Part shown: positions 12,079 to 21,015 of the stretch, one piece after another
Layout of the letters: each line of letters opens with the position of its first letter
Position numbering within the stretch: position 1 is the first letter of the stretch
Assembly (NCBI GenBank): GCA_947177205.1
Contig: CAMWTO010000007.1
Location: forward strand, 1-33,726
Reading direction: 5' to 3'
Length of the DNA: 33,726 nt
Origin: an uncultured Ruminococcus sp.
GTDB taxonomy: Bacteria > Bacillota > Clostridia > Oscillospirales > Ruminococcaceae
Program-made: the position numbers and the translations under genes
Notes under the pieces: model-generated
What the model saw: the letters and a program-made list of their open reading frames with translations, nothing else
Told to the model about the DNA's origin: nothing
Database searches by the model: none

Positions 12079-14127
12079 TTATTTTACGTTAAATGTTTGT
12101 CTGTCAGCCGTGTGGTCTTTTGTTGCCGTTGTCGTCACAGCGACTCTGTAAGTATAAGAACCTGCCGGAAGCTTATCAAACTCGATATATTTATCAATAT
12201 TCTTCAGGTCGTAGCTGGAAGCATCCGGTGCAATGGATTTGCTTGTCACGAGTTTATTATTGGCATCATAAATCGCAACTGTCACAGCTTTGATCGTGGA
12301 ATCAGAACTGATCGTTCCACGGACTGCAACACCTCTGCCCTTGCTGATTGTCTCCGGAATGCTTGTGCCGCCCGTGAAGGAAATTCCCTTTTCGTTGGAA
12401 CTTGTCGTTCCGGAATTGGAACTGGTTGCATTGCCGACTGTAAATTTCTGATTTGTGATGACATAATTTGTATTTGCGGCATTGGTTGCGAATACCATAT
12501 AGGAATATTCGCCGTCCGTCAGCTTGTTGAATTCTACATAAGAATCCAGTTTGTTGAGGTTGTAAGTCTTGGCATTCGGGATTGCCGTCTTTCCGGTAAC
12601 AAGCTTGTTCTGACTGTCATAGATACCGACTGTCACGGACTTGATATCAGAACTTGCAGAGGAGACCGTGCCTTTGACATTCAGACAGCTTCCCTTTTTG
12701 AGACTTTCCGGAATGCTTGTGCCGTTGGCAATTGTCAGCAGATCCGATGCGGCAGTCTTGTTGCCGACTGTGAACTTCTGTTCTACCAGTGCGTAATCCT
12801 TTGTAGATGCGTTTGTTGCAAATACTTTGTAAGTATAGTCACCCTCAGCAAGCTGATTGAACAAGATATCATTGTCAAGCTTGTTCAGATTGTATGTCTT
12901 GGCATTCGGTGCAACGGTTTTGCCGGTTGCCATATTATTATTGGAATCATAGACACCAACTGTCAGAGATGTGATCTCTGAACTTGCAGATGCAACAGTA
13001 CCCTTGACAGATACGCCCTTGCCCTTGGCAATTGTGGACGGAACAGTTGTGCCGTTGGCGATTGCCATTACATCATTTGCAACCTGTCCGCTGCCCTCAC
13101 CGACTGTGAATGCTTTGTTGACCATGACGTAATTTTTTGATACGCTATTACTTGCAAATACCATGTAAGCATAAGTGCCGTCAGGGAGCTTGTTGAATTC
13201 GATATAATTATCCAGTTTGTTCAGGTCGTAAGTTTTGGCATTCGGGATTGCCGTCTTGCCGGTGACCAGTTTGCCCTGTGTGTCGTAGATGCCGACTGTG
13301 AGGGATTCAATATTGGATTCCGCAGAAGTTACAGTGCCCTTGACGATGACTGTCTTGCCCTTGGCAAGCTTGTCCGGGACTTCTGTACTGCCGGAAATGG
13401 ACATGGTATCTGTTGTTGCGCCGGGATTCTGTCCCTGATTGGGATCCTGTACCGGAGCGCTGCCGTCCTCTGTCACAGCGAATTCCTGGGAAACAACAAC
13501 AAAATCCGTATTTGCGGCATTTGTAGCAATGACTTTGTAAGTATAATTTCCGTTGTCAAGCTTGTTGAAAGCGATATCGCTGTCTACTTTGGTGACATTG
13601 TATGTCTTGGCATTGGGTGCGACGGTCTTTCCGGTCATGAGTTTGCCGTCTTTGTCATAAACGCCGACCGTCAGGGAAGTCATGTTGGAATCCGAAGAAG
13701 TCACAACGCCTTTTACAGTAACGCACTTGCCTTTTTTCAGTACTGCCGGCAGGGAAGTGCCGTTGGAAATGCTCATGGTGTCGCTTGCAGCGGGTGTCTG
13801 TGGCGTACTGCCGTCCGTAACCGTAAAGCTCTTGTTCGTCAGAACGTAATTTGTGCTTGTCTCATTGGTAGCAAATACCATGTAAGTATATGTACCAGCG
13901 GGGAGCTTGTCGAATTCAATATAACTGTCGAGCTTGGCAATGTTGTAGGACTTTGCCTTTGGCAGAGCACTCTTGCCGGTCACAAGTTTGCGGCTGGAAT
14001 CGTAAATGCCGACAGTGACGGAAGAAATATCGGATGTTTCGGAAGAAACAACGCCTTTGACAGCAAGACCCTTGCCTTTGGCGATTGTATCAGGAACGTT
14101 AGTACCGTTGGAAATAGAAAGCGCATC
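12079..14127 (-). repeat. Six coding tandem repeats of ~306-372 bp
   Basis: Repeat starts (minus strand) at 14127, 13782, 13410, 13074, 12744 and 12387, derived from residue positions 44, 159, 283, 395, 505 and 624. Confidence 0.9.
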
Positions 14128-14256
14128 ATCGGCAGCAGCGGCTGTTAGATTCAGAAATGCGTCTTCAATGCGTGACATAGGTGTCGACTTGGCAGCACCT
14201 GCAAAGACGACCGTGGCAGCGAGGATTCCGGCGGCGATTTTTTGGCTATTTCTCAT
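12079..14256 (-). CDS. Secreted protein composed of six tandem ~110-aa (Ig-like/beta-sandwich-type) repeats
   Basis: 725 aa; signal peptide MRNSQKIAAGILAATVVFAGAAKS; six copies of (D)xxSIxNGTxxPxxxxKGKxxxVKGxVxSxxSxxxSxTVGxYDxxxKxxTGKxxxPxAKxYxxxKxDxxIxFxKLxxGxYxYxVxAxN. Confidence 0.88.
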   Translation of the reverse strand: MRNSQKIAAGILAATVVFAGAAKSTPMSRIEDAFLNLTAAAADDALSISNGTNVPDTIAKGKGLAVKGVVSSETSDISSVTVGIYDSSRKLVTGKSALPKAKSYNIAKLDSYIEFDKLPAGTYTYMVFATNETSTNYVLTNKSFTVTDGSTPQTPAASDTMSISNGTSLPAVLKKGKCVTVKGVVTSSDSNMTSLTVGVYDKDGKLMTGKTVAPNAKTYNVTKVDSDIAFNKLDNGNYTYKVIATNAANTDFVVVSQEFAVTEDGSAPVQDPNQGQNPGATTDTMSISGSTEVPDKLAKGKTVIVKGTVTSAESNIESLTVGIYDTQGKLVTGKTAIPNAKTYDLNKLDNYIEFNKLPDGTYAYMVFASNSVSKNYVMVNKAFTVGEGSGQVANDVMAIANGTTVPSTIAKGKGVSVKGTVASASSEITSLTVGVYDSNNNMATGKTVAPNAKTYNLNKLDNDILFNQLAEGDYTYKVFATNASTKDYALVEQKFTVGNKTAASDLLTIANGTSIPESLKKGSCLNVKGTVSSASSDIKSVTVGIYDSQNKLVTGKTAIPNAKTYNLNKLDSYVEFNKLTDGEYSYMVFATNAANTNYVITNQKFTVGNATSSNSGTTSSNEKGISFTGGTSIPETISKGRGVAVRGTISSDSTIKAVTVAIYDANNKLVTSKSIAPDASSYDLKNIDKYIEFDKLPAGSYTYRVAVTTTATKDHTADRQTFNVK

Positions 14257-14458: not shown

Positions 14459-14767
14459 TATATGGATGACAATCTTGTTGAAATTTGACTGCTTGCCCAA
14501 AAACAGCAGGCATTTTCAGGTCATTTTTCACAAATTTACACAAATTTTAAACCATATTTTTAAAGTATCGTTTTTCAATATTAAAAAATATTAAAATATA
14601 TTTAAAATATAGTTTGGAATGATAAAATTTTCATTATTTTTAAAAAAATAAAAATCAGAATTTTCCACGGAATTTTCCTGCTCTCATGTATATTTTTGTG
14701 AATTCTGCCTATAGTAATTGCAAATTTTTATGATCTGTTGATTTGATCTTTGAAAGGTGGTTTTTTT

Positions 14768-16711
14768 ATGCAGGCTGTTTTTTTCTGCGATAAGTTCGTT
14801 TCCTGCATTCCGGTCAGGGAATGCCCTGAAAGTCAGCTGACGCTCTGCAATGTGCCGCTGCTGGCATATCTGCTGAAATATATTCAAGAAAAAGGATTCC
14901 GGAATGCCGTTCTTCTGGGGACGGATGAGCAGACCAGAGAATTAGCGGATTCTCTCCATTTGAGAATGCCGGTGCAGTATGTGCGGACACTGGCTTCACT
15001 CCATGCGGACACGGCGACATTATTATTAAGAAGATTGTGTGTGCCGAACTGGGACATGGGAGAATTATTTTCACTCTGCGATTCCGGGACTGGCGCTGTG
15101 AAACTTCGTAATTCAGACGGCACGCCGACATTTGCGGAACTGCATCCGCAAGGCTCTGTTTTGCTTGCGCCGGAACGGACGGAATTATTGCAGGATTCCA
15201 CATTCCGGCAGATTGATACACCGGCGCAATATCGGGAAATTCAGCAGGAATTATTATCACAGGACAATTCCCGGCGGAAATTCCAGAATTCCCGGATTGG
15301 TGCAGGGGCAAAGATCAGCCGGCTTGCCGGGATTGATTCCCTAAGTGTCATCGGGAATGATTGTGTGATCCGAAAAGGCGCAGAACTGGAACGCTGTGTA
15401 TTAGGGGATGGCGTTCAGATCGGGGAGGATGCAAAATTAACAGATTGTGTGATCTGCCGCAAAGCCGTGATTGATCAGAAGACACATCTGGAAAATGCCG
15501 TGATTCCGGAGGAGACTGTTCTTCAGTCTGATGCGAGAATCCCCCGGAAAAAACAGATTGTAGTACTGCCTGAGGATGGCATCTGTCAGGGAATTCCACG
15601 GTGGAACACAGCCGAGACGGCGCTCCGTGCAGGTGCAGGAATGTCTGTCATCAGCCGGCGGCTTGCAATTGGTTACAGCCACAGAAGTGCAGAAAGTCTG
15701 GCGATTGCCGCATCCGCCGGCGCAGTTTCCCAGGGTATTCCTGTGTGGTATGCCGGAGAATGTGCGTTATCCCAATTGAATTTCATTGCGGCAATGACGG
15801 ACTGCGACATGCTTTTATGGGTACAAGGGGAACAGATCCGGCAAATCCGACCATTTCAGGCAGGTGGATTTCCATTGACAGAACAGCAGATTCACCGGGT
15901 TCAGCAGGCAATTGCGGCGGATGCCTGTGAAAGAATGACAGAATCAGGGGAATTATATCATGCGGAAAATTTACTGGCACTGTGGAAAGAACAGTGCAGA
16001 AAACTGATTCCGACGCAAATTCCGGGCAATCCGGAAATTCACGTGAGCTGTGGGAATTCGGGATTACGAAAAGCGGCGCAGGAACTGTTTTCTGAAATTT
16101 CCAGAAATTCGGAATCTGAGAATATAAAAAATAATATAAATTCCAGAATCACCCTGTCGCTTTCGGAAGACGGAACAAAAATTTCTGTATTTGTGTCGGA
16201 ATGTGGCATGATTCGCTGGGAACAGTTAATTTTAATCAGTCTGTTTGCATTCCGGGAAAACAGGGAAAGTCTAATCATTCCCGCAGATTTTCATCCGGTT
16301 GCCGAGGATTTCGCAAGGGAACAGCGTAAAAAAATCCGGAGAATCTCCCCGGAAGAGATCGAATCCGGGATGTCGCTGGAATTTCTGGAATCCTTTCAGA
16401 AACAGGGAATCTGCACAGATAGCGTGAAATTATTTGCGCACGTTCTGCAAGCGATGGCGTCCACAGGGAAGACTCTCCCGGAATTATTAAAAAATTTGCC
16501 GGAAATCTGCACCATACAGCATGAATTGTCCACGGAACTGACCCGACAGCAGATTGAACGGCTACAGGAATCAAACCAGGATCGGAAAGTAAGCATGATT
16601 CTTCCGGCGGGTGGCAAACTGGTGAAACTGCGGGTTCATGCGGATTCTGTAGAAACCGCAGCAGAGCTGTGCGGATTCTGGGAAAAAAAATTACAACGCC
16701 GTGAAAATTAA
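14768..16711 (+). CDS. Degenerate sugar nucleotidyltransferase + left-handed beta-helix + phosphohexomutase-like fusion protein (probable pseudoenzyme)
   Basis: Order of elements: MQAVFF...LTLCNVPLLAYLLKYIQEKGFRNAVLLG, ...IDTPAQYREIQQELLSQ, hexapeptide-like SLSVIGNDCVIRKGAELERCVLGDGVQIGEDAKLTDCVI, then a phosphomannomutase-like region ending LVKLRVHADSVETAAELCGFW. ATG 14768 with SD GAAAGGTGG. Confidence 0.7.
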   Translation: MQAVFFCDKFVSCIPVRECPESQLTLCNVPLLAYLLKYIQEKGFRNAVLLGTDEQTRELADSLHLRMPVQYVRTLASLHADTATLLLRRLCVPNWDMGELFSLCDSGTGAVKLRNSDGTPTFAELHPQGSVLLAPERTELLQDSTFRQIDTPAQYREIQQELLSQDNSRRKFQNSRIGAGAKISRLAGIDSLSVIGNDCVIRKGAELERCVLGDGVQIGEDAKLTDCVICRKAVIDQKTHLENAVIPEETVLQSDARIPRKKQIVVLPEDGICQGIPRWNTAETALRAGAGMSVISRRLAIGYSHRSAESLAIAASAGAVSQGIPVWYAGECALSQLNFIAAMTDCDMLLWVQGEQIRQIRPFQAGGFPLTEQQIHRVQQAIAADACERMTESGELYHAENLLALWKEQCRKLIPTQIPGNPEIHVSCGNSGLRKAAQELFSEISRNSESENIKNNINSRITLSLSEDGTKISVFVSECGMIRWEQLILISLFAFRENRESLIIPADFHPVAEDFAREQRKKIRRISPEEIESGMSLEFLESFQKQGICTDSVKLFAHVLQAMASTGKTLPELLKNLPEICTIQHELSTELTRQQIERLQESNQDRKVSMILPAGGKLVKLRVHADSVETAAELCGFWEKKLQRREN

Positions 16712-17077: not shown

Positions 17078-18958
17078 TTGAATAATTCTAAGTCAACTAA
17101 TTCCAGATCAGAAAATCCCGGAACGGATGCCCACGGTCGCTTCAAATCCGGCACGCCCAGAACGAACACCCAGCGCAAAAATTCGACGGCAGGGCATGTC
17201 CAGAACCAGAACACCGCAAAACCGGACGACGGATCTTTCCAGAAACGGAAACATTACACCGTACAGTCCAAATCCACCCCGAAACTGAAAGTTCTCCACA
17301 CCACGCCCGTCAGGATCATTCCGTTAGGGGGATTGAACGAAATTGGCAAGAATATGACCGTTTTTGAATGCTGTAATGACATGTTCATTCTCGACTGCGG
17401 TCTTGCATTTCCGGATGCCGACATGCCGGGCGTGGATATTGTGATCCCGGATTTTACTTATGTCGAACGCAATAAAGACAAACTCCGTGGGATTGTGGTG
17501 ACGCACGGACACGAAGATCACATTGGAGGGCTTGCCTATCTGCTCAAGAAGGTCAATGTGCCGGTTTATGCGTCGGCGCTTACAATCGGATTAATCAGAA
17601 ACAAACTGGAGGAACACGGCATCGCAAACCGTGTTTCGCTCAACGTTGTGGAACACAGAAAAAACGTAAAAATGGGCTGTATGTCCGTAGAATTCATCCG
17701 GGTCAATCATTCCATACCTGGTTCTATGGGAATGGCAATTCATACACCGGCAGGCGTTCTTGTCCACACAGGAGATTTCAAGATTGACTACACGCCGATT
17801 GACAATCAGCCCATTGATTTAGCCAGATTCGGGGAACTGGGCAGCCGTGGCGTTCTTGCATTAATGGCAGATTCCACAAATGCGGAACGTCCGGGCTACA
17901 CGCCGTCAGAGCGGAAAGTCGGGGATTCTTTTGAAAATTTATTCAAAAGAGCCGGCAGCAAGAGAATTATTATTGCAACGTTTTCATCTAACATTCACAG
18001 AATTCAGCAGATCATTAACATGGCGGTCAAGACCAAACGAAAGGTTGCCGTTCTGGGGCGGAGCATGGTGAATGTCATTGCCACGGCAATGGAACTGGGC
18101 TATCTGGACATTCCTAAAAACGTTCTGATTGATATCGAAGCAGTAAATCTCTATGCACCGGAACAGCTTGTGCTTGTGACGACCGGCAGTCAGGGCGAAC
18201 CGATGTCAGCGTTGACAAGAATGGCGAAACATGATCATAATAAAATCACGATTACGCCTATGGATTTTATTATTTTGTCTGCGACGCCCATTCCTGGCAA
18301 TGAGAAACATGTGACACAGGTTGTCAATGAATTACTGCAATCCGGCGCAGAAGTGATCTATGAATCCATGTATGAAGTGCATGTATCAGGGCATGCGTGT
18401 CAGGAAGAATTAAAACTAATGATGGCGCTGACAAAACCAAAATTTTTCATCCCGATGCACGGTGAATACAAGCATCTTGTGAAGCACCGGAAGCTTGCAC
18501 TGGAAATGGGTGTCCCGAAAGAGAATATTTTACTGGCATCCATCGGGAATGTGATTGAAACAGATGGGACGAAACTGCAGATCATTTCCCAGGTTCCTGC
18601 CGGACGGACGCTCGTGGATGGTCTGGGCGTGGGAGATGTCGGCTCTGTGGTGCTCCGTGACAGAAAACAGCTCTCCGCAGACGGTCTGATTATTGTCGTA
18701 GTTGGTCTGGAACGTAGTTCCAGCCGTGTTGTTGTCGGACCTGAAATCATTTCCAGGGGCTTTGTCTATGTCCGGGAAGCCGATGAGATCATCACCCAGG
18801 CAAGACAATTAATGAGTGATGAACTGCGCAAGTGTTCCCATGCGGAACTGCGGGAATGGACAGCACTCAAATCCAGACTGCGGGAATCCATGTCGAATTT
18901 TATTTTTGACAATATGAAACGCACGCCCATGATTTTGCCGATTATTTTAGAAATATAA
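17078..18958 (+). CDS. rnj: Ribonuclease J
   Basis: RIIPLGGLNEIGKNMTVFECCNDMFILDCGLAFPDADMPGVDIVIPDF, GIVVTHGHEDHIGGLAYLL, HTGDFKIDYTPID; TTG start with SD AGAGGG. Confidence 0.96.
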   Translation: MNNSKSTNSRSENPGTDAHGRFKSGTPRTNTQRKNSTAGHVQNQNTAKPDDGSFQKRKHYTVQSKSTPKLKVLHTTPVRIIPLGGLNEIGKNMTVFECCNDMFILDCGLAFPDADMPGVDIVIPDFTYVERNKDKLRGIVVTHGHEDHIGGLAYLLKKVNVPVYASALTIGLIRNKLEEHGIANRVSLNVVEHRKNVKMGCMSVEFIRVNHSIPGSMGMAIHTPAGVLVHTGDFKIDYTPIDNQPIDLARFGELGSRGVLALMADSTNAERPGYTPSERKVGDSFENLFKRAGSKRIIIATFSSNIHRIQQIINMAVKTKRKVAVLGRSMVNVIATAMELGYLDIPKNVLIDIEAVNLYAPEQLVLVTTGSQGEPMSALTRMAKHDHNKITITPMDFIILSATPIPGNEKHVTQVVNELLQSGAEVIYESMYEVHVSGHACQEELKLMMALTKPKFFIPMHGEYKHLVKHRKLALEMGVPKENILLASIGNVIETDGTKLQIISQVPAGRTLVDGLGVGDVGSVVLRDRKQLSADGLIIVVVGLERSSSRVVVGPEIISRGFVYVREADEIITQARQLMSDELRKCSHAELREWTALKSRLRESMSNFIFDNMKRTPMILPIILEI

Positions 18959-19005: not shown

Positions 19006-21015
19006 GTGAAACCGAAATATCATGGTTTGTTTTGGGCATTTCTGGTGATTCTGGTCGGGATGACAGTGATTTTATCTGTGATTTTGTTCCGCAGCAGTCA
19101 GCATTACAGTCTGCTGTATAATCTTCCGACATTTCTGCTGGTTGTCGTCACGGCTGTTAATCTTCTGTATTCCCAGCAGCATCATATCCGGTATATTGCA
19201 AAATTAAACCATGAATGCGAATATGCAGAACTGAATACCATGCAGCAGCTTCCCGTTGGAATCTGCGTTCTGGATCATGCAGACATTCTCCTGCACTGCA
19301 ATCAGTTTTTTGAACAGCAGATCATGTTTGACCAGGATTTTTTTGGAAAGAAACTTCCGGAGTGCATTCCGATGGATCCGGAACTTCCGGAACAGGATAT
19401 TCACTGGCAGGAAAGATATTATCATGTCACTTCTGTGTCTTACGAAGATCCAGAAAAAAATTGTTATACCGCATTTCTTTGGTCGGACAGAACGGAATTG
19501 GAACAGCTCCGGCAGGATTATGACAATTCCCGGATGTGTGTGCTTGTGATTGTCATTGATAATTACGAAGATCTCATCCAGAATGCCAAAGAGAGCGAGA
19601 AACTGGAAATCAGCGCAGCCATTGAAAAATTACTGGAAGCATTTATCTCCCGGACGAACGGCATTCTCAAACGTCTCAAAAATGACAGATTCATTGCAAT
19701 TCTGGAAGAACAGCATATCCAGCAGTGCATTCTGGAAAAATTCCGGATTCTGGACGATGCCCGGAAGATCTGTGTCAGCAGTCGGAATAATAAGAATTTT
19801 ATTACATTCTCTATTGGTATCGGACACGGTGCGGAAAATTTGCAGGAAAGCGAAGCGCTCGCCGTCCAGTGTCTGGACATGGCGCTAGGACGTGGCGGTG
19901 ACCAGGCTGTCGTCAAGACGGAGAACGGATTCCGATTTTTCGGAGGCGTTTCCAAAGGCGTCGAGAAGAAATCCAGAGCCAAAACCCGGATTGTTGCCGG
20001 TGCAGTGCAGGATTTCATCCTCAACAGCGAAAATGTGTACTTAATGGGTCACCGGTTCGGCGATCTGGATTCTGTTGGCTCTGCCTGTGGTCTTGCCGGG
20101 GCGATTCAGGAAATGAAAATTCCTGTGAATGTAGTCGTTGATCCGGAAAAGAATCTCTCTCAGCAGTTAATTGCTATGGTTAGGCAGGAAACGGGCGAAG
20201 AATTATTCCTCACGCCGCAACAGGCAATTGACACAATCACAGAGAATACGCTGTTGATTATCGTAGACACACATAATAAAGAAATTCTTGAAAGTCTGGA
20301 ATTATACCAGGCGGCAAAGAAAGTGATTGTCATTGACCATCACCGGAAAAATATTAATTATGTCGACAATGCGGTTGTATTCCATCATGAACCTTATGCA
20401 TCTTCCGCTTGCGAAATGGTCACGGAGCTGATCCAGTATTTTAAACTGGAACATCAGGTTCCGTCCTGGTGTGCGGATTGTCTGTTATCGGGGATTATGT
20501 TGGACACGAAAAATTTTGTGATGCGTACAGGCGTCCGGACGTTTGAGGCGGCGGCATATCTGAGAAAGACCGGTGCAGACACCGTCCGTGTCAAATGTCT
20601 GTTTTCGGATTCGATTGAAATTTACCGGAATCGTTCCATGATTGTATCCGGGGCGGAAATCCAGGGTTGTTATGCGATTGCAACAGCGCCGGAAGGAACG
20701 CCGGAAGTGCGGTTGGTTGCACCACAGGCGGCGGACGAATTATTAAATATTTCTCACGTCACATGTGCGTTCGTGATTTACAAAATTCAGAATGTTGTGT
20801 CAATTTCGGCAAGATCGCTTGGAAATGTGAATGTGCAGGTGATTATGGAACAGCTTGGCGGCGGCGGGCATCAGACAATGGCAGCAACGCAAATCCGGGA
20901 CATTTCCATAGAACAGGCGCAAGAACAGCTCCGGAGCGTTCTTGCGGAGAGTTTAGAAGAAAAGCCGGAAGAAAATTCAGAAAAAAATCCGGGAGAATCC
21001 GGACTGCCGGCTTAA
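19006..21015 (+). CDS. gdpP: GdpP/YybT-like c-di-AMP phosphodiesterase (2 TM, PAS-like, degenerate GGDEF, DHH-DHHA1)
   Basis: GHRFGDLDSVGSA, IIVDTHN, VIVIDHHRKN and GGGGHQTMAATQI motifs; gdpP-rplI-dnaB order; GTG start with SD GGGGAGGTGG. Confidence 0.93.
   Translation: MKPKYHGLFWAFLVILVGMTVILSVILFRSSQHYSLLYNLPTFLLVVVTAVNLLYSQQHHIRYIAKLNHECEYAELNTMQQLPVGICVLDHADILLHCNQFFEQQIMFDQDFFGKKLPECIPMDPELPEQDIHWQERYYHVTSVSYEDPEKNCYTAFLWSDRTELEQLRQDYDNSRMCVLVIVIDNYEDLIQNAKESEKLEISAAIEKLLEAFISRTNGILKRLKNDRFIAILEEQHIQQCILEKFRILDDARKICVSSRNNKNFITFSIGIGHGAENLQESEALAVQCLDMALGRGGDQAVVKTENGFRFFGGVSKGVEKKSRAKTRIVAGAVQDFILNSENVYLMGHRFGDLDSVGSACGLAGAIQEMKIPVNVVVDPEKNLSQQLIAMVRQETGEELFLTPQQAIDTITENTLLIIVDTHNKEILESLELYQAAKKVIVIDHHRKNINYVDNAVVFHHEPYASSACEMVTELIQYFKLEHQVPSWCADCLLSGIMLDTKNFVMRTGVRTFEAAAYLRKTGADTVRVKCLFSDSIEIYRNRSMIVSGAEIQGCYAIATAPEGTPEVRLVAPQAADELLNISHVTCAFVIYKIQNVVSISARSLGNVNVQVIMEQLGGGGHQTMAATQIRDISIEQAQEQLRSVLAESLEEKPEENSEKNPGESGLPA

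Follow-up and report, generated by a model that had tools for sequence, protein, structure and literature searches.

The stretch of DNA analysed here, 33,726 nucleotides from an uncultured Ruminococcus sp. (GCA_947177205.1; GTDB Oscillospirales; Ruminococcaceae) and referred to below as the window, carries on its forward strand an open frame that codes for 647 residues plus a stop codon, followed on the same strand by genes for RNase J (rnj) and a GdpP-type DHH phosphodiesterase (Table 1). An earlier note, made from the letters alone, had described this frame as intact over 648 codons and upstream of rnj/gdpP, and both descriptions are borne out. Orthologues without internal stops are present in 27 further genomes of the genus, so that the frame is not a chance one; a frameshift or wrong-frame artefact was considered separately and is ruled out by conservation of the frame across all 28 genomes. 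Although a TTG at 14750 is a possible alternative start, the ATG at 14768 is favoured, because the Shine-Dalgarno-like GAAAGGTGG and its genus-wide counterpart GAAAGGYGG precede the same ATG. The GAAAGGYGG upstream of orthologues L002–L027 is an unusual ribosome binding site, and most genes in the window carry other variants. Divergent from the gene, at 12079–14256 on the reverse strand, lies a gene for a secreted-looking 725-residue protein with six repeats of ~110–125 residues and the motif TVGxYD, and this adjacency is kept in close relatives. An Rfam scan of the window found no RNA element.

Table 1. Coordinates of the gene, its parts and its neighbours in the window
Feature	Position	Strand	Basis
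Shine-Dalgarno-like GAAAGGTGG	14752..14760	+	Conserved as GAAAGGYGG across genus
Pseudoenzyme gene, NTase-like/LbH/PGM-like fusion, 647 aa	14768..16711	+	ORF call, orthologues, hhalign to full-length family
Eroded nucleotidyltransferase domain, residues 1–165	14768..15262	+	AF2, PDB folds, hhalign
CDKFVSCIPVREC, residues 7–19, at NTase signature GGxGTRLxPLT site	14786..14824	+	Alignment
LbH (hexapeptide) domain, residues 173–262	15284..15553	+	Pfam
Phosphohexomutase-like domain, residues 268–643, domain II shortened	15569..16696	+	Foldseek, hhalign
MLLWVQGEQIRQIRPF, residues 348–363, replaces catalytic-serine loop TASHNP	15809..15856	+	Alignment
SEDGTKISVFV, residues 466–476, replaces metal loop DGDGDR	16163..16195	+	Alignment
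LPAGGKLVKL, residues 612–621, replaces phosphate loop RPSGTEP	16601..16630	+	Alignment
rnj (RNase J), conserved downstream neighbour of pseudoenzyme gene	17078..18958	+	Synteny
gdpP-type DHH phosphodiesterase	19006..21015	+	Follows rnj in genus and part of order

The product belongs to a family whose full-length members run from a sugar-1-phosphate nucleotidyltransferase (NTase) through a left-handed beta-helix (LbH) to a phosphohexomutase (PGM)-like domain. Searches with Pfam alone were too weak to reveal this, the LbH being the only clear part (Hexapep_GlmU, 9e-9, and Hexapep, 2e-6, both over the cut-off; LbH_EIF2B, 3e-13, narrowly under), and profiles built from the family together with predicted folds were therefore used. 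In the HMM search that the earlier note had proposed, NTP_transferase (PF00483) has no match to the frame at E<=10, while three other genes are matched genome-wide, and PGM_PMM_I reaches only E 0.05, below the cut-off. A profile of the genus form nevertheless aligns to that of the full-length form of ~770 residues over 624 columns (hhalign E 5e-58). Structure prediction, also proposed there, returns a Rossmann-like NTase fold at the N-terminus and a PGM fold at the C-terminus (AlphaFold2 with only genus sequences in the alignment, pLDDT 82); the LbH is poorly modelled but clear from sequence. The NTase-LbH-PMM-like order that had been read from the letters is thus the correct one, and by domain order, full-length similarity and synteny the gene is an orthologue of the NTase-LbH-PGM fusion (MPG1/K16881-type).

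The NTase half is eroded, with ~165 residues in the genus of the window compared to ~235 in intact relatives. Residues 1–168 modelled alone (pLDDT 85, pTM 0.82) still find nucleotidyltransferases as their best PDB folds (E 1.5e-4, TM 0.63) when intact relatives are left out of the alignment, and the domain aligns to the A2 profile with an hhalign E of 3.6e-6. At the N-terminus MQAVFFCDKFVSCIPVREC aligns with the MKAVIxAGGxGTRLxPLT of intact relatives, as the earlier note had proposed for the signature GGxGTRLxPLT, and throughout the genus the GGxGTRL loop, the catalytic Lys and the metal-binding Asp are all absent, the region being deleted or replaced. Among the Clostridia relatives sampled, those from outside the order all have the same loop, Lys and Asp intact, as do most of those within it. 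Differently eroded NTase domains occur in other genera of the family (L158, L161, L162, L173, L181, L184, L185, L232 and others), and these are apparently independent natural intermediates of NTase erosion.

The PGM-like half retains its fold. The predicted model contains the four-domain PGM arrangement with a shortened domain II, and Foldseek matches it to PGM, PMM and GlmM structures (E 1e-18 to 1e-14; best 1.6e-18, 9du5). Alignment with solved phosphohexomutases places MLLWVQGEQIRQIRPF and SEDGTKISVFV where TASHNP and DGDGDR are expected, exactly as had been suggested, and across the family the TASHNP, DGDGDR, GEESGH and RPSGTEP sites are all replaced or deleted. A motif scan for the four loops finds them in none of 172 Clostridia relatives; the single pattern match, STSNN in L162, is not a catalytic loop. 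They are absent as well from three relatives in Streptomyces, Nonomuraea and Sulfuricurvum, so that the sample covers Clostridia, Actinomycetota and Campylobacterota. The claim that both catalytic sets have been lost is therefore correct in that both are absent, but the loss in the PGM half is not special to this gene. Because the loops are missing in all 172 proteins and in the three relatives from other phyla, the PGM half was non-catalytic long before the NTase was lost. The Streptomyces and Sulfuricurvum relatives are annotated "sugar phosphate nucleotidyltransferase"; for L304, L305, L306 and L113–L142, from Actinomycetota, Campylobacterota and other Clostridia, whose PGM half lacks the catalytic loops, the usual annotation as phosphomannomutase looks doubtful.

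The gene occurs in three forms. First, in a search of 61 genomes (that of the window and 60 relatives), the eroded fusion is present in 28 of 37 genomes of the genus, the window included, and the misses may not be absences since many of the remaining genomes are incomplete MAGs; the other 27 orthologues share 40–75% identity, and their carriers are uncultured Ruminococcus or Oscillospiraceae, several of them from herbivore rumen or gut. Second, R. flavefaciens and related Ruminococcus encode stand-alone proteins of ~360 residues that match the C-terminal part only, the NTase and LbH having been dropped completely in this clade. Third, the matching proteins in other families of the order are full-length (~770 residues). 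Profile comparison joins all three into one family (stand-alone form against genus form, hhalign E 1.4e-37; against full-length form, 7e-35), and synteny agrees. At most loci with enough flanking sequence the gene, in each of its forms, is the immediate upstream neighbour of rnj and shares its strand, and several families beyond the order show this arrangement too. A few genomes have the gene away from rnj, and gdpP is not always adjacent to the locus.

A survey anchored on rnj extends this picture to the family. It starts from RNase J in 139 family genomes, of which 80 had their upstream regions newly read. Recognisable members turned up in ten of these 80: four are full-length, one is eroded, and the remainder are PGM-like only, a short piece or a fragment at a contig edge. 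In almost all of the other regions there is none, a few of them being truncated where the contig ends, and an NTase-only gene is found at none of the 80. By a hand tally of newly and earlier-read genomes, roughly 57 of the 139 carry the gene. The NTase is intact in ~20 of them and clearly eroded in 15, another 14 have the PGM-like part alone, and the rest are ambiguous or fragments. Forms with a dead NTase, or none, that retain the PGM-like part recur. A 260-residue remnant upstream of rnj in one genome (L249, G537) matches the PGM-like domain in its first part only and may be an even shorter form or a copy in decay.

The order of the losses was read from a PGM-like domain tree of 120 rows, built by a quick method with SH-aLRT support; given its long branches and fast search, single nodes deserve limited trust. 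By parsimony the intact/non-intact NTase label changes at least nine times, at least five of these changes being forced by well-supported (starred) branches, and a recount that leaves out L155, L157, L165, L170, L171 and L177, six proteins whose NTase motifs are borderline, still gives nine. The changes are read as losses because the NTase is intact in every class-level row from beyond the order. The clade of the window (100*) and the stand-alone R. flavefaciens clade are sisters (90), and both fall within a larger clade (97*) whose 32 rows are all non-intact and which is itself nested among intact clades. On this tree the NTase half was lost in the common ancestor of the window's clade and independently in several others, and the two halves died at different times, the PGM half earlier and the NTase later.

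Selection has nevertheless kept what is left. The dN/dS comparison and the inspection of relatives for broken frames, both put forward in the earlier note, yield a frame that is open in all 28 genus members and purifying selection in all three domains: pairwise dN/dS within the genus is mostly 0.05–0.2 in the NTase remnant, LbH and PGM parts, rising to 0.4 in the N-terminal parts for one distant pair. Values this low indicate that the NTase remnant is retained for a purpose, and together with the intact frame they characterise a maintained pseudoenzyme.

With homology, predicted folds, motif loss, the order of losses, constraint and synteny taken together, the preferred reading, to which we give a probability of roughly 0.7, is a maintained double pseudoenzyme with the PGM-like domain as a non-catalytic sensor or scaffold core that would bind a ligand and regulate. 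The ancestor would have been an active NTase and LbH fused to a PGM-like domain already without catalytic loops; in the Ruminococcus lineage of the window the NTase active site would then have been lost and the domain rebuilt as a smaller conserved module. The PGM-like domain would be the working part, its remodelled cleft presumably binding a phosphosugar, a nucleotide-sugar or a protein partner and acting as a sensor or scaffold on another protein, while the LbH and NTase remnant may provide shape and oligomerisation. The product most probably serves regulation or scaffolding and not catalysis, a role that the earlier note had also proposed in view of the intact frame. Also present in the genome are genes for GlgC and GlgD, a separate GDP-mannose pyrophosphorylase-type gene with a gmd-like neighbour, and one separate phosphosugar mutase with intact motifs (all named by inspection), so that neither NTase nor mutase activity depends on the fusion. 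Counted against this reading is that most other genera of the family lack the gene in front of rnj, which makes the role dispensable at family scale.

The other enzymes of the genome raise the possibility, which we consider rather unlikely, that the protein is a trans-acting regulatory subunit of an active NTase, either GlgC/GlgD or the stand-alone GDP-mannose pyrophosphorylase, with the dead NTase-LbH joining the enzyme and the PGM-like part sensing substrate. The three other NTase-family genes of the genome could supply such a partner, and non-catalytic NTase-LbH paralogues do regulate elsewhere, GlgD acting on GlgC in this way. The best precedent for regulation by a dead NTase is GMPPA, a GDP-mannose-binding protein that regulates GMPPB (PMC11228364). 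However, the gene is not linked to glg or manC genes, and the sister clade drops the LbH and the whole NTase and keeps only the PGM-like part.

Synteny raises the further possibility of a regulator of RNase J or the c-di-AMP system, with the PGM-like domain acting on RNase J or diadenylate cyclase. GlmM, which has the same fold, inhibits the c-di-AMP cyclase CdaA through domain 2, whose acidic residues contact CdaA Arg126 (PMC8573169); a DAC gene is found in the genome, and gdpP often follows rnj, the neighbour kept even outside the order. We nevertheless regard this as improbable, since adjacency of genes alone is weak evidence, about half of the sampled family genomes have rnj but not the gene, gdpP is not a constant neighbour, and domain II, with which GlmM binds CdaA, is shorter in this protein. 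A transfer of the CdaA interface of GlmM was considered, but its acidic residues could not be assigned in the shortened domain and the transfer could not be established. The rnj/gdpP adjacency and the inhibition of CdaA by GlmM suggest, by analogy, a direction only for the mechanism. As a broader and tentative proposal, the PGM-like domain would be a non-catalytic signalling module, dead across phyla and repeatedly shedding its NTase in Ruminococcus and relatives, that possibly couples sugar-phosphate status to RNase J/c-di-AMP at the rnj-gdpP locus.

Invariant polar residues common to the fused and stand-alone forms, such as Cys428, His509, Asp468 and Asp551, may alternatively confer a new catalytic activity, the rebuilt clefts catalysing a different reaction. 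With four separate loops lost and no new motif resembling a known active site, and with residues that may be structural, the chance of this is small. The graded series across the family, from full through eroded and PGM-only forms to absence, could, finally, reflect slow decay of a gene not yet broken, but 28 open frames and a dN/dS well below 1 in every domain argue against this within the genus and leave it very improbable there. The preferred reading, a maintained double pseudoenzyme, carries a caution for annotation, as GDP-mannose or phosphomannomutase function should not be assigned to these gut-genome genes. The full, eroded and PGM-only forms also provide natural intermediates for the study of a transition from enzyme to regulator. 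Within the partial coverage of an open-access literature search, no paper describes an NTase-PMM fusion with both halves dead, and none gives an account of repeated NTase loss with a dead mutase kept.

Pseudoenzymes of both folds are already known. GlgD is the non-catalytic NTase-LbH partner of GlgC, and it shares with GMPPA and eIF2B gamma/epsilon the non-catalytic NTase-LbH architecture seen here, the LbH of the window matching those of eIF2B and GMPP best; unlike the present protein, however, these have known partners and no PGM-like domain. PGM5 (aciculin), a non-catalytic phosphoglucomutase with a structural role in vertebrates, similarly reuses the phosphohexomutase fold without catalysis, but in an unrelated lineage, without a fusion and with far less sequence change. 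GlmM, PMM and PGM have the same fold, and GlmM also moonlights on CdaA, whereas the domain described here lacks all four motifs and has domain II cut short. The closest counterpart is the fused mannose-1-phosphate guanylyltransferase/phosphomannomutase, which we take to be KEGG K16881 and CDD cd05805 (MPG1-type). The gene of the window shares its domain order, its full-length profile and, in Clostridia, its locus upstream of rnj, but has lost the NTase site and is cut to ~165 residues in that domain. A chain that joins two enzymes is commonly taken for a two-step catalyst, and the names given to this family generally imply two active halves; the PGM half lacks the catalytic loops in every member sampled and the transferase half is repeatedly lost, which inverts the usual reading.
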